32,382 nt of DNA from the IMG/VR virus record IMGVR_UViG_3300035670_000849, positions 1 to 32,382 of that record. The stretch is one strand, 5' to 3'. The notes beneath the pieces are model-generated. The model made no database searches and was not told where the DNA came from. It saw nothing but the letters and a program-made list of their open reading frames with translations. The translations under genes were made by a program, and so were the position numbers. Source of the DNA: a virus. Of the stretch, positions 4,959 through 25,754 are shown piece after piece; the first letter of the stretch is position 1; each line of letters opens with the position of its first letter.

Positions 4959-5165
4959 CTACCCTATCGCTCCGGCGTGAAATTCATCTGTTAGCGCGGT
5001 GGCTAAGTCTTGTGCAGCAGGTTCGGGGTCAGCGCCCTCAGCTATGCAGTCCAGGATACAGGCGAGGTGTCTGCGAATAACATCAAGGTCATAGCTCCAG
5101 ACTAGAGGTGCGCTTAGTAGTTGTGAGGCTTCTTTTATTGTTTCATACTGATCTTGGTATTTCAC
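4959..5165 (-). CDS. Hypothetical protein (68 aa)
   Basis: 68-aa acidic, helical protein starting at GTG 5165, preceded by GGGAGAG. It overlaps the previous stop as GTGA and ends 4 nt before the HTH gene. Only one region has any character: LACILDCIAEGADPEPAAQDLA. No family recognised. Confidence 0.65.
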   Translation of the reverse strand: MKYQDQYETIKEASQLLSAPLVWSYDLDVIRRHLACILDCIAEGADPEPAAQDLATALTDEFHAGAIG

Positions 5166-5392
5166 TTGTTCTCTCCCTCTATAAGGTCATTACCAAAAGT
5201 GTCAATTAGTTTGATGATTGTATTTCTTTGAGCGTCAGATTTCCAGATTTGTTCGTCATCTAAAATCTTGATTACTGAATTGACAATGTAAGGCACTGCC
5301 AACTTCTTGAATTGCCGATTACGCTTTGATTGCTCCGCTTGTAGTTCACTGCTCGCTATCCAGTGGGCTAATTTTAGTTTTCTGTTGCTCAC
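5162..5392 (-). CDS. Hypothetical protein (76 aa)
   Basis: 76-aa basic, helical protein starting at GTG 5392 with GGGAGAG upstream. It ends LIEGENK. The same 16-nt junction (last codons, Shine-Dalgarno, GTGA) occurs at its own 5' and 3' ends, so the gene is bounded by short direct repeats. No domain recognised. Confidence 0.65.
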   Translation of the reverse strand: MSNRKLKLAHWIASSELQAEQSKRNRQFKKLAVPYIVNSVIKILDDEQIWKSDAQRNTIIKLIDTFGNDLIEGENK

Positions 5393-8693: not shown

Positions 8694-9055
8694 TAGAAAG
8701 GCATCTCGTCATCAACTTCGCGCCAAGACACAGGAATCTCAACAGGCTCACGCTGCTCTTTCAACTCAAAGCGAGCCGAATTAATAGCAGTTTCAACACT
8801 CTGCCCCTGTTTACCAGTCTGTTTAGAAATCACAGGGTTGCCATCCTTATCAGTCCAATCCCTGATCTTCGCAGAAAACAAACCCGAAAACTTACCAAAA
8901 GAACCCTGACCATAACTAAAAGGCTCATCAAACCAAGCTGTGTACTTACGCTCATAAGTCGAACCATCACGGCCCTTAACAGTCTCCACAACATCAACAC
9001 CCTTACCATTGTGGAAAACTCTCTTAGCAACACCCTCAACAGATAAAAAAGCCAT
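8693..9055 (-). CDS. ssb: Single-stranded DNA-binding protein (actinophage type)
   Basis: 120-aa protein with a beta-rich N-terminus (LSVEGVAKRVFHNGKG) and a C-terminal acidic tip DDEMPF. This tip resembles the DDDxPF tail with which bacterial SSB recruits partners. Its location beside RusA and near the recombinase pair supports an ssDNA-binding role in replication and recombination. The fold is not the standard SSB sequence signature, so this is a family inference from actinophage homologues and the tail. ATG 9055 is preceded by a weak GGA. Confidence 0.8.
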   Translation of the reverse strand: MAFLSVEGVAKRVFHNGKGVDVVETVKGRDGSTYERKYTAWFDEPFSYGQGSFGKFSGLFSAKIRDWTDKDGNPVISKQTGKQGQSVETAINSARFELKEQREPVEIPVSWREVDDEMPF

Positions 9056-9114
9056 CTCAAATCCAATCTCTAAAAACAGGCTTACAAAACAACACTAGCC
9101 GAAAAAGCCGACAA

Positions 9115-9375
9115 TTACTCAATATGATTTGGATTAATACAATCGCGGTGATTACAAAGCCTCGCCCCAGGCAGAAACAACTCACCATCACGCATCGGAT
9201 TATCCTCACGATCAAACGCGCCACGATGAGGCAAACACCTATCGCCACTATGACCAAACACAACCGTCAGCGCAGGTCTAGCCCTACAAGACTCACACAA
9301 ATCAGGTTCTTTGCGCCGATTAGGTTTCGGAATCCAGCCGAACCCACAGCGTTTGCAATTCACAAAATCTTCCAC
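9115..9375 (-). CDS. Zinc-binding, HNH-like small protein
   Basis: 86-aa protein with an N-terminal C-x2-C pair (CKRCGFGW) and CESCRA that make a zinc ribbon. A C-terminal CNHRDCINPNHIE follows, matching the C-x-NPxH end of HNH_3-type nucleases. A full catalytic His-Asn pair upstream is not clear (CLPHRGAFDREDNPM). It may be a nuclease or a degenerate zinc-binding relative. It sits between SSB and the structured intergenic region and ends 59 nt before ssb. Confidence 0.7.
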   Translation of the reverse strand: MEDFVNCKRCGFGWIPKPNRRKEPDLCESCRARPALTVVFGHSGDRCLPHRGAFDREDNPMRDGELFLPGARLCNHRDCINPNHIE

Positions 9376-9813
9376 AGGAAAAGATTACAGGTTATCTCTA
9401 TCCGGCAGGCTCTTGAGGGTAGGGAAACGGCTTATCTTAAACCGTTTACCTGACTATCCGTATAGGACTATCGGGCTTTTCTAACGGGTCATTCCTCGCG
9501 GTTATGACTGTCTACGCCAAATGCTTGCCAAATTACTAGGCGACCAGGTAGACACGATTGACCGCATCTGACAAGCTCTGTTCTACTCTCAAGAACTCTC
9601 ACCTGTTCTATTTCAGGTGTGATGAACTGGCGGCATCTAACGCCCAGTATCTCCGATTATGAATCGAGAGCCAATTGACTTAACGACAGTTTGACGGTCA
9701 CTAACCTCTGTCGCCGATAGCGAGGGTTAGGAAATTCCACTAAGCTGGAACTGCCGATACCACGATTATCGGATTGTGGGTCAGCCTTTTTATCCTTTAG
9801 GCTGGCCCACTTC
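9376..9813. ncRNA. 440-bp non-coding, hairpin-rich region (candidate structured RNA or origin)
   Basis: No convincing coding frame on either strand. Successive inverted repeats are visible: AAACGG/CCGTTT (9425/9442), GTCTACGCC/GGC..GTAGAC (9510/9539), CACCTG/CAGGTG (9600/9614), CTGGCG/CGCCCAG (9627/9641), CGATT/AATCG (9654/9662), CTAACC/GGTTAG (9701/9725), TTCCA/TGGAA (9735/9746), CCGATA/TATCGG (9754/9767), and the long hairpin at 9776-9810. The density is far above that of other gaps in the window. The final hairpin has a U·G pair and T-rich tail that favour plus-strand transcription. Alternatives are a minus-strand leader for the 9375 gene or a replication origin. No tRNA is recognisable. 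Confidence 0.4.
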
Positions 9814-9822
9814 TTATTCTAT
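9776..9822 (+). terminator. Strong hairpin with T-rich tail, plus strand
   Basis: GTGGGTCAGCCT (9776-9787) pairs with AGGCTGGCCCAC (9799-9810) over 12 bp with an 11-nt loop. The one non-Watson-Crick pair is U·G on the plus strand but A·C on the minus strand. TTCTTATTCT follows on the plus strand. It ends 4 nt before the HNH stop at 9814, so it could also stop minus-strand read-through, although there is no T-run in that direction. Confidence 0.6.
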
Positions 9823-10143
9823 CACTTTACTGCGATCCCAAGAGTTGTCAAGTACAAACCAAGCCTGTGCAACATTGTCCCAAATTGGGACTGATTCTGG
9901 CTCTTGCCATTTAGACAATTTCCAGCCCTTAGCCTTAGCCTCGCCAGCATACAAGACATTACTCTCAATCAGCCCATTCATCCTGCTACAAAGCAAGACA
10001 AGGTTAGAGGGCTTATCTAATTCCTTTGATCCGCCCATCCCCCGATTTGCCCTATGGTTCGGCGCGATAGCCTCAGTTTCCCCACAATGCACACAGCGCC
10101 CCAAGTCGCGCTCTAAAAGTTTCTTCCAGTCAGTCTTTTTCAA
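9814..10143 (-). CDS. HNH endonuclease-like protein
   Basis: 109-aa protein. WKKLLERDLGRCVHCGE leads to APNHRANRGMGGSKELDKPSNLVLLCS and MNGLIES, a compact HNH domain well known in actinophages. The second zinc-pair cysteine is atypical (single LCS), as in that subfamily. The start is TTG 10143, with AGAGGTG 7 nt upstream, overlapping the small membrane gene. It may act in recombination or packaging, or be a mobile nuclease. Confidence 0.85.
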   Translation of the reverse strand: MKKTDWKKLLERDLGRCVHCGETEAIAPNHRANRGMGGSKELDKPSNLVLLCSRMNGLIESNVLYAGEAKAKGWKLSKWQEPESVPIWDNVAQAWFVLDNSWDRSKVIE

Positions 10144-21013: not shown

Positions 21014-21028
21014 CTTACATTCTACCGC
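21014..21028 (-). promoter_or_regulatory. Repeated motif GCGGTAGAATGTAAG, copy 2
   Basis: Exact 15-bp repeat of the copy at 19081-19095, 5' of the connector gene. It lies at the end of the cytidylyltransferase gene. TAGAAT could be a -10; a GAGG Shine-Dalgarno and GTG 20993 follow. Confidence 0.45.
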
Positions 21029-21440
21029 TAATGCGTTTCTTCAACTCTGTTGTAGAAATGCCCTGAGTATAAGGAACATACATAAGCCCAATACCTCGCT
21101 CATCGAGCCAGTCTTGAGTGAAGCCCATCTGTGAGTAATAGTCGCGCCTAGCCCAATCCGAGCCGATAACAATAATGTCAGGTTTGACTATCTCAATAGA
21201 GATGCGAGAGTCAGCGCCGCCATAGTTAGGGATAACATCATCAACCCAGCGACAAGAGCGCAAAACAGCTTCACGCTCCTCATAAGTATCAATCGGTGGT
21301 TTCCCCTTGTAAGCGGCAATGAACTGATCCGTGTTCAGAGAAACAGTCACAGAGCCAAGTTCGGCACAGCGTTTCAGCAGTTGAGCGTGGCCCCTGTGAA
21401 ACATCGAAAATGTCCCGCCGGTGTACACTCTCAGTCCCAT
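21015..21440 (-). CDS. TagD-like cytidylyltransferase
   Basis: 141-aa nucleotidyltransferase. The opening TGGTFSMFHRGHAQLLKRC carries the H15-x-x-H18 motif of the cytidylyltransferase superfamily, and GISTTELKKRI near the C-terminus is the second signature. TagD-type enzymes make CDP-glycerol or similar activated precursors. Located next to two glycosyltransferases, it probably activates a sugar or polyol for modification of virion or host surface. Substrate cannot be told by eye. Confidence 0.88.
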   Translation of the reverse strand: MGLRVYTGGTFSMFHRGHAQLLKRCAELGSVTVSLNTDQFIAAYKGKPPIDTYEEREAVLRSCRWVDDVIPNYGGADSRISIEIVKPDIIVIGSDWARRDYYSQMGFTQDWLDERGIGLMYVPYTQGISTTELKKRISGRM

Positions 21441-22078
21441 CGGTTATCTCTCCGAATCCTGAGTGACCATTCCCCTTGAGTATTGTCACCCTCTGCCAGC
21501 TTCTTGTTGTAGAGGGCAGCATTAGCGACATAAGACCGCGCGTTTTGCCCCTCGAAACCGCTCTTGAGTGTCGAGCTGTTTTCGTGATGGATGACAGCAG
21601 GAATGTGGTTAGTCGGAACTTGCGCCGCATCCACTCTGCGCTCAAGGTCATTGTCATCGAAATAAAGCGGATAAAATCGCTCATCATACAAGCCGACTTT
21701 CTCGACCATTCCCTCACCAAAGACCACAGCAGACCAAGGTGGATTCACTTGCAAGAAGTTTAAAGCCTGAGTGTCTACATTCTCGGCGATGGCTTGCAGA
21801 GCGCCCTTTTCAAACCAAGCATCATCATTGACCAAAACCCAATAAGGCGCATAAGGTGTTGATTTGACAATTAGATTCCAAGCACCGACAAGACCAAGCC
21901 CATAAGGAACTTCGATGTGCCAAAGGTTTTTCACACTCTCTGGCTTCTTTGGATACCAGGATTTAGTCCCAGAGTTATTGACAATGACCAAATGCTCGAC
22001 AGGGTAATCAATTGAAGCAAGCAAGCGTTCAGCTAGGTCAAACCGCTTTAGAGTGCAAAAGCCGAGAACAGGAATCAT
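21431..22078 (-). CDS. GT2-family-like glycosyltransferase
   Basis: About 215-aa glycosyltransferase. The frame is longer, but ATG 22078 follows GGAGAAG and overlaps the upstream stop as ATGA. Features: an N-terminal FCTLKRFDLAERLLASI, VNNSG, then YWVLVNDDAWFEKGAL (a DD motif at the metal site) and YFDDNDLERRVDA. A donor and acceptor cannot be inferred. It is adjacent to a GT4 enzyme and a cytidylyltransferase. Confidence 0.85.
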   Translation of the reverse strand: MIPVLGFCTLKRFDLAERLLASIDYPVEHLVIVNNSGTKSWYPKKPESVKNLWHIEVPYGLGLVGAWNLIVKSTPYAPYWVLVNDDAWFEKGALQAIAENVDTQALNFLQVNPPWSAVVFGEGMVEKVGLYDERFYPLYFDDNDLERRVDAAQVPTNHIPAVIHHENSSTLKSGFEGQNARSYVANAALYNKKLAEGDNTQGEWSLRIRRDNRWD

Positions 22079-23274
22079 TTGGACTTCTCCAACAGGCGAC
22101 CGATAACAGGCAGCCAATTTTCTTCCCAGACCTTTTCAACATCGAACTGTTTAGCGAACTCCATAGACACCTTAGAACGCTCTCTAGGGGCATTGTAAGC
22201 CTGCTCTAAAGCCTCGACAATTGACGGCACTAGAGGAACAGTCCAGATAGCATCCTGAGCCGAATCATACATAGGCTGACCATCAATCAACCAACCGTCA
22301 TCTGCAACCAAGTCAGGTGTTGCACCCCAGTTAGAACCGATAACCCTAGTGCCACAGGCTTGAGCCTCAACAGTAGGGATGCCAAAGCCCTCACCATAGC
22401 TAGGGGCAAGAAGAACATCCATCGCCGTATAAAGAGCCGCTAAGTCGCGCTGAGGCATACCGTATTTGTAATCCACCATCGGGGGAAACAACACAGCCTC
22501 TTTAGGGATACCGAAAGCTGCCATAACCTTGAGCAGATTCCAACCAATACCCCCACCGAGCGGATCAGTGTGCAGATACAAAACCGCGTCAGGGTGACGC
22601 TGTCTAAAGATAGAGAAAGCCAAAAGGTTCTCACTAAAGGCTTTGCGGTGAACCAAGCCAGAAGATTTGTTAGCAGCGTTCATCCCCACAACAAACTCAT
22701 CCGTTAGCCCCATCCACTCTCGAACAGGCTGACCCTCAACGGTCTTTGTAGGTTTGAAGATTTTAGTGTCAATGCCGTGAGGGACATACTCACACTCGAT
22801 ACCCTTTTGCTCCATCTGGCGCACACCATTTGGGGCCATAGCAATCGGAGCGACATTCTCTTTGCGAAGAAAAGCCTCGACAAGTGGGGGCATAGTTCCG
22901 TGATCGAGCGGTGTCCACCAACCAATGTTGATGTTATCCCAAGCCTGACCTTTGATAATCCAGCAGTCATAAAGACCAATCAGCGCATCTGGCAAACCCT
23001 TATTAGAGCCTTTGAAGTGAGCGTGATGCATCGGGCCAACATCATTAGAGTAGGCTTCCATTCCGCGAGGATAGTGAGGGATTTTGCCATAAGGGGTCGA
23101 GAGGGTAGACAGAGAACCCTCAAGCCCATAGTTAGAGATAGCGGCTACCTCAGCGCCATCGCGCTTTAGCCTATGAACTAGATACTCGGCTTGGACTCCG
23201 TATCCAGTAGATTGACCTGGTGTGTTAGACCAGACAGAAATTGCCCCATTTATTTTTTGCGTAGGTTTGCTCAT
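22075..23274 (-). CDS. GT4-family-like glycosyltransferase
   Basis: 399-aa glycosyltransferase. The frame extends to 23313, but MSKPTQK at 23274 is the likely start. Features: N-terminal SVWSNTPGQSTGYGVQAEYLV, NIGWWTPLDH, VPHGIDTKIF, and the C-terminal nucleotide-sugar motif SYGEGFGIPTVEAQACGTRV with the E-x7-E pair. No strong Shine-Dalgarno. Position after the capsid gene suggests virion glycosylation, known for some actinophages. Confidence 0.88.
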   Translation of the reverse strand: MSKPTQKINGAISVWSNTPGQSTGYGVQAEYLVHRLKRDGAEVAAISNYGLEGSLSTLSTPYGKIPHYPRGMEAYSNDVGPMHHAHFKGSNKGLPDALIGLYDCWIIKGQAWDNINIGWWTPLDHGTMPPLVEAFLRKENVAPIAMAPNGVRQMEQKGIECEYVPHGIDTKIFKPTKTVEGQPVREWMGLTDEFVVGMNAANKSSGLVHRKAFSENLLAFSIFRQRHPDAVLYLHTDPLGGGIGWNLLKVMAAFGIPKEAVLFPPMVDYKYGMPQRDLAALYTAMDVLLAPSYGEGFGIPTVEAQACGTRVIGSNWGATPDLVADDGWLIDGQPMYDSAQDAIWTVPLVPSIVEALEQAYNAPRERSKVSMEFAKQFDVEKVWEENWLPVIGRLLEKSK

Positions 23275-23293
23275 AGTTATACAATAGTAGAAA

Positions 23294-23320
23294 CCTCGGC
23301 GATGCGCGAACATCCCGAGG
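23294..23320. other. Hairpin between the divergent GT4 and HNH genes
   Basis: CCTCGG (23294-23299) pairs with CCGAGG (23315-23320) across a 15-nt loop. It occupies most of the short region between the GT4 start (23274) and the GTG of the HNH gene at 23322. It may be an insertion-site landmark or part of a promoter region. No clear function. Confidence 0.35.
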
Positions 23321-23321
23321 C

Positions 23322-23978
23322 GTGACCAAACTAGAGAAAGTAGTTCAGTTGTCTAATACTAAGCGATGCAATAGATGCCTGCAAGTTTTGCCTTTTGAAT
23401 TTTTTTATGTCCGGCGAGCTTCTAAAGATGGCTATGCATTTACCTGCATTAAATGCGACAAAGAGCGCAAGGCAAATTTAACCCCAGACCAAAAACAAGC
23501 GAATGTTTTAAAGTCTAAAAATTGGGCTATAAGCAATCCAGAGCGAGTATCTGCCAATAAAAAGAAATCTGCTGAGAAGAATCGCATTGCGAGAAATGAA
23601 AGAAATAGAGCAAGGTATCAGCAAAACCCTGAAATTTATAGAGCAAAATCACGGGCTTTGAGAAATGCAAATAAAGAACTTTACGATAGACACGGCATAA
23701 ACCGTAGAGCAATTAAGCGTGGCACAGGCGGAATAAAGCTTTCCGCATCAGAAATAATGCAAATTAGAAAGTCGCCTTGTTTTTATTGTGGAACGATTGG
23801 CTTGAATGAACTCGATCATATAGTGCCGCTTAGCAGAGGCGGTAAACATACAATTGGCAATTTAGTTTCAGCTTGTCGAACCTGCAATGCCTCTAAGGGA
23901 AATAAAACAATTATGGAGTGGCGCTTAAATAAACCGAGGGCCGACTCCCTACGCAGAGCCGACCCTCGGGGTCTTTAA
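23322..23978 (+). CDS. HNH endonuclease on the plus strand, inserted beside the capsid gene
   Basis: 218-aa HNH nuclease, paralogous to 2874-3515: N-terminal CNRCLQ...CIKC, a Lys/Asn/Arg-rich linker, then CFYCG, LDHIVPLSRGGKHTIGNL and CRTCNASKG. It is the only late-region gene on the plus strand. GTG 23322 is the longest start; TTG 23349 would give a start matching its paralogue. Its last residues (RADSLRRADPRGL) are encoded by the capsid terminator hairpin, so the gene seems inserted after an existing terminator. The linker DNA is A+T-rich. Confidence 0.88.
   Translation: MTKLEKVVQLSNTKRCNRCLQVLPFEFFYVRRASKDGYAFTCIKCDKERKANLTPDQKQANVLKSKNWAISNPERVSANKKKSAEKNRIARNERNRARYQQNPEIYRAKSRALRNANKELYDRHGINRRAIKRGTGGIKLSASEIMQIRKSPCFYCGTIGLNELDHIVPLSRGGKHTIGNLVSACRTCNASKGNKTIMEWRLNKPRADSLRRADPRGL
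23927..23969 (-). terminator. Terminator of the major capsid gene
   Basis: A 14-bp hairpin: 23934-23947 pairs with 23956-23969 around an 8-nt loop. Two pairs are G·U on the minus strand but C-A/A-C mismatches on the plus strand, so it was shaped for minus-strand transcripts. On the minus strand it is followed by TTTATTT (23927-23933), about 20 nt after the capsid stop. Confidence 0.9.
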
Positions 23979-25237: not shown

Positions 25238-25394
25238 TGAGATTGTGTAAGTGCGTCCTTGGCAAGTCTGCCCCTGCAACCTTGGCAAACCATCCCCTTA
25301 AAGCACAAACCCCCAGCAGGGGGCTACTGAGGGCTTGTAACATTCCGCCAAGAATGTTTGGGTGTTTTATTTACATCGGTTGATGTATAGACAA

Positions 25395-25423
25395 ATTGTA
25401 TAGACATAAAAGCAAAAAAGCAA
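25395..25423 (-). promoter_or_regulatory. Capsid promoter with overlapping direct repeats
   Basis: On the minus strand TTGCTT (25418-25423) and TACAAT (25395-25400) are 17 nt apart. The 10-mer TGTATAGACA (plus strand) occurs at 25384-25393 and 25397-25406, a 13-bp period overlapping the -10 and start. The repeat could be an operator for a phage regulator. Confidence 0.6.
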
Positions 25424-25424
25424 A

Positions 25425-25474
25425 ACCCGAGCAGTTTGATCTATGCTCTCGCATTACAGGGACTGTTCTCGGGT
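25425..25474 (-). terminator. Second terminator hairpin upstream of the capsid promoter
   Basis: ACCCGAG (25425-25431) pairs with CTCGGGT (25468-25474), with an inner CAGT/ACTG pairing and a long loop. On the minus strand it is followed by TTTTGCTTTTTTG, a T-rich run that also contains the -35 of the capsid promoter. Terminator and promoter therefore overlap. Confidence 0.6.
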
Positions 25475-25496
25475 ATCCACTAATTATTTTACGGCA

Positions 25497-25534
25497 AAAA
25501 GAAACCCCACTGCGAAAGGGAGTAAACAGTGGGG
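25497..25534 (-). terminator. Terminator after the protease/small-protein operon
   Basis: CCCCACTG (25505-25512) pairs with CAGTGGGG (25527-25534) around a 14-nt loop. On the minus strand it is followed by TTTCTTTTTG. It lies about 60 nt beyond the stop of the 52-aa gene (25596). Confidence 0.85.
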
Positions 25535-25595
25535 TAAAGAAAACCAGAAAGAGTTAGGGTTATTCTTTTTGACCTGCGCTTATGTGGGCAGGAAT

Positions 25596-25754
25596 CTATC
25601 GAGTTTCCTTTGACTCTATAACTCTAGTTTCCTTTGCAGGATTCCCAGAGGCTTTGAGTTCTTTCACTAGCTCGGCAATGACTCCAGAGTCAGGCTTGCC
25701 TGAAACTTCCTCAATGACCTTGATGGCGGTTGCGATTTCTTCTTTGGTAGCCAT
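25596..25754 (-). CDS. Small helical head-region protein (52 aa)
   Basis: A 52-codon frame from ATG 25754 (TAATG with the protease stop) to TAG 25596. The protein is charged and helical (TKEEIATAIKVIEEVSGK; VIAELVKELKAS) and ends with VIESKETR. It lies between the protease and capsid, the position of scaffolding or head-assembly helpers in related phages. That role is an inference; no family is recognised. Confidence 0.68.
   Translation of the reverse strand: MATKEEIATAIKVIEEVSGKPDSGVIAELVKELKASGNPAKETRVIESKETR

Follow-up and report, generated by a model that had tools for sequence, protein, structure and literature searches.

Organization of the locus

The window analyzed here is a 32,382-nt stretch of viral DNA (IMG/VR record IMGVR_UViG_3300035670_000849) that encodes a WhiB-like regulator along with HK97-type head proteins, features that identify it as actinobacteriophage DNA. 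Within the window, positions 9376–9813 separate two minus-strand genes. An HNH endonuclease gene (9814–10143) forms the upstream border of a slot that holds the replication initiator in many relatives. P0001 (9115–9375), the first gene 3′ of the large RNA described below, encodes a small zinc-binding HNH-like protein without a Pfam or PHROG match. A preliminary description of this DNA had called the region between these genes hairpin-rich and non-coding, and both attributes hold up. An ORF scan detected no contained reading frame of at least 60 aa, and the region folds better than its dinucleotide shuffles on either strand (z = −4.4 for the plus and −4.3 for the minus strand; 0/100 shuffles as good). 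From this single sequence, the strand of most of the region is undecidable. No GC-skew extreme marks 9376–9813.

Relatives of the HNH protein indicate Microbacteriaceae, Arthrobacter, and Microbacterium hosts. A host search with this protein yielded nothing beyond a Gordonia genome and, at 43% identity, a Microbacteriaceae MAG of the initiator type. The MAG contig (L231, CAKZKU010000079.1) carries an initiator-type relative of the replication cluster, a hint at host range.

A large structured RNA in the gene direction

A low-stringency comparison of the window with 80 HNH-linked loci revealed homologues of positions 9405–9711 in three of them (L120, L155, and L149). With two pattern scans, the homologues outside the window came to ~17 contigs, in one of which the RNA is truncated by the contig end; a third scan yielded no additional full-length homologue. 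Sixteen of the sequences, the window included, were aligned (alignment A6), and an nhmmer search with the resulting family model matched the window at 247.6 bits, the window being among the 16. Family-model match and covariation together point to a large structured RNA of a new family, ~310 nt long and encoded on the minus, gene-sense strand (9405–9711; 5′ end at ~9712, 3′ end at ~9404), with 14 helices that include two pseudoknots.

The minus strand of the alignment folds into a consensus of 74 pairs, with 94.8% of cells paired across the 16 sequences and double compensatory changes in 53 of the 74 pairs. The covariation score is 0.548, compared to 0.218 for shuffled alignments and at most 0.11 when pairing partners are slid; because the structure was picked on the same alignment, the paired fraction is biased in its favor, but the slid controls are still far off. 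Several observations bear on strand. The RNAalifold consensus energy is −133.8 kcal/mol on the minus strand, compared to −120.7 kcal/mol on the plus strand, and the pairs contain 107 G·U against 12 A·C combinations when read on the minus strand. When helices were chosen in a strand-neutral manner, using Watson-Crick pairs only, the ratio of G-U to A-C was 57 to 30, and 24 to 9 at a stricter threshold. This excess of G-U on the minus strand shows that the coding direction of the large RNA is that of the genes.

The 5′ domain (9685–9712) consists of H1 (9708–9712/9685–9689) enclosing the hairpin H2 (9703–9706/9696–9699). Both helices are 100% paired, and four of the five H1 pairs show compensatory changes. 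A first pseudoknot, PK1 (9671–9694), would join 9691–9694 to 9671–9674 and is less strongly supported than the other elements, with 81% of cells paired. It is followed by H3 (9651–9670), a hairpin with a T-loop-like UUCANAA loop (96% paired, compensatory changes in 4/8 pairs), and by a block at 9580–9647 comprising H4 (9642–9647/9627–9634), H5 (9614–9619/9600–9605), and H6 (9592–9596/9580–9584). These three helices are 97–99% paired, with compensatory changes in 14 of their 17 pairs. The next segment (9509–9576) holds a stack of H7 (9572–9576/9523–9527, compensatory changes in all five pairs), H8 (9566–9570/9529–9533), and H9 (9560–9565/9540–9546), and the H9 loop (9548–9554) pairs with 9509–9515 in the second pseudoknot, PK2 (96% paired, compensatory changes in 4/7 pairs). 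Lastly, the 3′ domain (9426–9508) is formed by H10 (9500–9508/9488–9495, up to 97% paired) and H11 (9441–9446/9426–9431, 92% paired). The preliminary description had listed a series of consecutive local inverted repeats here; the repeats exist, but several of them are arms of the minus-strand RNA rather than independent hairpins, as in the case of 9548–9554/9509–9515.

Upstream of H1, a TANNNT motif occurs at a distance of 9–11 nt in 10 of 16 RNA phages (those carrying the large RNA), compared to 2.7 expected, and reads TATAAT in four. In the window, TAGAAT at 9816–9821 on the minus strand is a candidate −10 element of a sense promoter reading into the large RNA. A TTGACA at 9846–9851 lies 24 nt upstream of TAGAAT and 16 nt from a second box, TAAAGT; a search for a sigma-70 −35 box turned up no consistent TTGACA for either the sense or the antisense promoter. 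The pyrimidine-rich 3′ end of the large RNA falls 25–60 nt ahead of the P0001 start codon, with no terminator in between.

Both the large RNA and the small antisense module described below are missing from Rfam. A search of the window with the Rfam 15 covariance models (GOLLD, ROOL, group I/II introns, RNase P, tmRNA, and others) gave no match at gathering thresholds, and at an E-value threshold only a chance snoRNA match (17.4 bits against a cut-off of 40). ARAGORN detected neither a tRNA nor a tmRNA in the window. The region was also judged to be neither protein-coding nor a group I/II intron or tmRNA. Compared directly with phage and plasmid collections, its DNA matched nothing meaningful, and two diverged homologues of the large RNA found nothing in the phage collection. 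The earlier suspicion of a large structured RNA from an unrecognized family is thus borne out, both by covariation among homologues and by the lack of an Rfam match.

A small, putatively antisense module on the plus strand

The part of the region next to the HNH gene contains a separate plus-strand element, a small antisense-RNA module (9740–9821) made up of a −10 box, a 5′ hairpin, a terminator hairpin, and a U-rich tail. The −10-like box is TAAGCT (9741–9746), and a TANNNT motif is found 7–8 nt ahead of G-CCGATA in 20/20 aligned modules. Given this spacing in all 20 modules, a transcript of ~65–70 nt is predicted; from the positions of the −10 box and the terminator, it would span 9753–9820 in the window. 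The first hairpin is CCGATA-CCACGAT-TATCGG (9754–9772), and it covaries in other phages (CCAACA/UGUUGG, CCGACA/UGUCGG). It is followed at 9776–9821 by a terminator-like 12-bp hairpin (9776–9787/9799–9810) and the U-rich tail TTCTTATTCTA.

The preliminary description was accurate for this last hairpin, for the U-G wobble on the plus strand, and for the T-rich tail, and the strand assignment extends to relatives: allowing plus-strand G-U pairs, the stem measures 12–14 bp in 20/20, compared to a mean of 5.9 bp with minus-strand wobbles. The proposal that the RNA of the region is antisense to the operon would hold for this ~65–70-nt terminator element, but not for the main RNA, which is gene-sense.

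A hairpin pattern common to the window and its nearest relative, L004, led to ~20 true homologues in other phages, whereas most of the 90 loci that matched the first hairpin pattern were due to chance. A covariance model (R1) trained on 17 homologues matched the window at 66.2 bits (E = 4e-21; the window is in the training set) and recovered about ten further modules outside the training set, in loci chosen by the HNH protein alone (L115, L183, L171, L180, L125, L143, L120, L147, L150, and L153). In the padded alignment of the module, arms were chosen for pairing, so its figure of 100% paired arises partly by construction; the R1 matches outside the training set and a symmetric strand test are independent of this choice. 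The module was not found in isolate Arthrobacter and Microbacterium phages.

In ~25 relatives without the large RNA, the small module lies opposite the leader of the replication-initiator mRNA. In these protein-type phages it occupies the other strand, 33–45 nt before the start codon of the initiator gene; in L004 and L107, another gene intervenes between module and initiator. In 25/25 initiator-type loci, the sense leader contains, just ahead of the Shine-Dalgarno site, an element whose sequence complements the 3′ arm of the first hairpin, compared to 1.6 loci expected when complementarity of at least 5 nt is counted, and this element changes along with the hairpin type. The module accompanies the large RNA only in the window and in L120, the other RNA phages lacking it. 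In the window, a corresponding element, which we call element C (minus strand, 9399–9408; plus-strand sequence TATCCGGCAG), is complementary to 9751–9759 (CTGCCGATA). This pairing closes the large RNA in the window phage. The large RNA thus lies within what corresponds to the sense leader of the protein-type phages, flanked by the two complementary segments. As read from these patterns of conservation, the region is two RNAs on opposite strands.

Exchange of the large RNA with a protein initiator module

In related phages, the HNH gene and P0001 delimit a slot in the order HNH-[X]-P0001-SSB-RusA. An initiator fills it in 93 HNH-initiator loci, which encode 83 distinct proteins, and the large RNA does so in most RNA phages; P0001 is conserved and comes after either kind of replication module. 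In the protein type, the initiator is O-like or RepA-like and often accompanied by a helicase or putative loader gene, as in the isolate Arthrobacter phage Pitbull, whose slot is annotated as 'RepA-like replication initiator' and 'DnaB-like dsDNA helicase'. Where the surroundings of the large RNA are available, most RNA phages show the order HNH-(methyltransferase or acetyltransferase)-large RNA-P0001-SSB-RusA. One exception is L194, where the large RNA sits in a different gene neighborhood.

The most direct comparison is with the nearest relative of the window (locus L004, genome G012), which is 95–98% identical on both sides of the slot. The two share 22,170 bp at 95.5% identity, and the differing part corresponds to 8702–9853 of the window, where RNA-P0001-SSB stands against GNAT-initiator-loader-P0001-SSB in G012. 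Between HNH and P0001, G012 has three genes: one for an acetyltransferase, one for a helix-turn-helix protein of 256 aa, and one for a protein of 136 aa. The helix-turn-helix protein has a match to PHROG 270 'replication initiation protein' (E = 1.7e-37) as well as to O-like families; other protein-type relatives add a DnaB-like helicase in the slot. As judged from this alignment, the difference between the two phages is a natural exchange of modules. Window positions 4978–5167 match both ends of the G012 record (L235/L236), which therefore appears to be a complete, circularly permuted genome of 30.6 kb.

Profile searches of whole records detected no initiator in 11/11 RNA records (the window and ten others of 19–35 kb, which may be incomplete), and the same searches found one in 4/4 protein-type controls. 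The PHROG 270/O-like profile matched G012 with E = 6.8e-96 and was absent from the window and the ten other RNA records. No RNA record contained DnaB, but of the four protein-type controls only one did. Integrase, ParA, and ParB were absent from all records searched (16 records for ParA/ParB), leaving maintenance as a prophage plasmid unsupported.

The phage of L120 (G011) differs from the others in having, in addition to the large RNA, a short 117-aa wHTH initiator elsewhere and an inverted SSB-RusA pair; the large RNA is therefore not always alone. The initiator gene, at 333–686 of contig L211 of this phage, encodes a wHTH-only protein and is followed at ~690–850 by iteron-like repeats (translated RTSKVERPDI..GRTTGHLRSNDRT); these could be a DNA origin, which in this phage would exist alongside the large RNA.

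A proposed role in replication and its alternatives

On these comparisons, a protein initiator and helicase appear to have given way to a new conserved RNA. We consider the region probably to be an RNA replication module standing in place of the phage's protein replication initiator. That the large RNA would do the initiator's job is suggested by its replacing the initiator and helicase genes in near-identical phages, and by the same antisense element fronting either. The origin or structured leader that the preliminary description offered as its main alternative comes close to this reading. The large RNA would be transcribed in the gene direction, ending just before P0001-SSB-RusA, and replication would start at or next to its locus through host enzymes, by analogy with ColE1 RNA II or with mycobacterial prophage RNA origins, making an initiator or helicase gene dispensable. 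It might prime synthesis as in ColE1, or its fold might recruit a primosome protein of the host; the pyrimidine-rich 3′ end mildly disfavors a classical R-loop. In the window and one other phage, a ~70-nt plus-strand RNA would be made opposite the 5′ leader of the large RNA. Given that the small module lies opposite the leader in both types of phage, it may act as an antisense brake on replication in both.

A broader version of this proposal, to which we give about even chances, is that in virulent-type tailed phages the pseudoknotted family acts as initiator of replication, recombining one-for-one with an O-like initiator plus helicase/loader module and, in some phages, falling under the same antisense RNA switch as the protein initiator. 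Signs of a prophage state are lacking in these phages, so that any part played by the RNA in lytic replication would be a novelty.

Could the large RNA instead be a cis-acting 5′ leader of P0001-SSB-RusA, riboswitch-like or protein-binding, with replication depending on an unrecognized protein or host factor? Its location on the gene strand 25–60 nt before the P0001 start codon, without a terminator of its own, is what such a leader would have. However, ~80 protein-type relatives carry the same downstream genes without one, and the large RNA swaps with initiator and helicase genes rather than with a regulator. The profile searches found no initiator-like protein elsewhere in the RNA records, and at ~310 nt, with two pseudoknots, the RNA is big for such an element, all of which makes this reading unlikely. 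We regard as rather more doubtful still a trans-acting RNA with no part in replication (an anti-defense decoy, a host-takeover factor, or a scaffold like GOLLD and ROOL) that occupies a variable slot by chance. Ornate phage RNAs without known function provide a precedent, and accessory genes (GNAT, methyltransferases) also vary in the slot; these genes, however, join the initiator, whereas the large RNA occurs without it. Nor would chance occupancy account for the lack of initiator and DnaB across whole records of RNA phages or for the control element common to the large RNA and initiator leaders.

Two further readings were weighed. If the region were a DNA origin, its inverted repeats would act as iterons, cruciforms, or single-strand hairpins; it does occupy the initiator slot, and the lambda origin lies within the initiator gene (PMC7157519). 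Against this, compensatory changes preserve long-range and pseudoknotted RNA pairs, the G-U bias is strand-specific, and no iterons were found in the region, so that a DNA origin is highly improbable. The single ~400-nt plus-strand RNA of the preliminary description, antisense to the operon and ending at the 9776–9810 terminator, has the plus-strand terminator in its favor but is contradicted by covariation of 9405–9711 as a minus-strand RNA. Moreover, most homologues of the large RNA lack the terminator module, and most terminator modules occur without the large RNA; we give this transcript almost no credence.

On the preferred reading of an RNA replication module, these uncultured actinobacterial phages may start copying their genomes with an RNA instead of a protein. 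The existence of phages that are 95% alike over 22 kb and differ by an RNA/protein exchange makes replacement of a protein by an RNA in replication initiation directly testable, and the small antisense switch in ~25 other phages may explain how initiator synthesis is limited in lytic phages.

Comparison with known systems

In most tailed phages, replication is started by a protein of the O-like, RepA-like, or DnaD-like type, and initiation by RNA only is known from ColE1-type plasmids. Since 2020, RNA-only initiation has also been known from some mycobacterial prophages (Wetzel et al., 2020, PMC7157519). The RNA origins of these extrachromosomal prophages (RedRock, Alma, LadyBird), which were shown genetically and whose RNA region is needed for lysogeny and not for lytic growth, are the closest precedent (PMC7157519). 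In both cases, a ~400–500-bp non-coding region, transcribed there and putatively transcribed here, replaces the initiator in actinobacteriophages, and protein-type and RNA-type phages are closely related. The two also differ in several respects. The mycobacterial origins maintain a prophage next to parABS, whereas parAB and integrase were not found here; the slot here is that of an O-like initiator; and no conserved pseudoknotted structure has been reported for the mycobacterial origins (PMC7157519). Homology was rejected: nhmmer detected no match between the Alma/RedRock ori RNA and the large RNA, and blastn gave only chance matches of 10–15 nt.

ColE1 RNA II/RNA I offers a second parallel, a large structured RNA being found there too instead of an initiator protein, with 0/11 RNA records carrying an initiator or DnaB and G011 as the exception. 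In the window and L120, a predicted short terminator-ended RNA would also lie opposite the 5′ end of the large RNA, in a position comparable to that of RNA I. There is no homology, however, and most RNA phages lack the antisense module. ColE1 replication relies on RNA II priming, RNase H cleavage, and Pol I extension, steps that would be hypothetical for the large RNA.

For the small module, the nearest counterparts are the I-complex (IncI alpha, IncB, IncK), IncL/M, and R1 plasmids, in which a small antisense RNA lies opposite the rep-mRNA leader. The protein-type phages show this arrangement in predicted form, with a covarying module 33–45 nt upstream of the initiator. As in these plasmids, a long-range pairing conserved in the leader would compete with sequestration of the Shine-Dalgarno site; the complementary elements are present in 25/25 protein-type phages. 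The arrangement resembles the antisense/pseudoknot control of repZ in I-complex plasmids reviewed in PMC10724649, although sequence and host differ. Lambda OOP is likewise a short terminator-ended antisense RNA adjoining the O replication gene, but it is antisense to cII and not to the O leader. GOLLD and ROOL resemble the large RNA as large structured RNAs borne by phages; the large RNA is smaller, has a different genomic context, and is not matched by their covariance models.

Other features of the window

Three further features were noted near the structural genes. A second gap of ~410 bp (25344–25753) lies between minus-strand genes close to the head-protein genes. Beside the major capsid gene, a plus-strand HNH endonuclease ORF (23322–23978) opposes all of its neighbors and resembles a homing insertion. 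Finally, a nucleotidyltransferase-like gene (of the cytidylyltransferase type, from its sequence) and glycosyltransferase genes lie within the structural block at 21015–23313, and a possible function for them is decoration of the capsid or tail.
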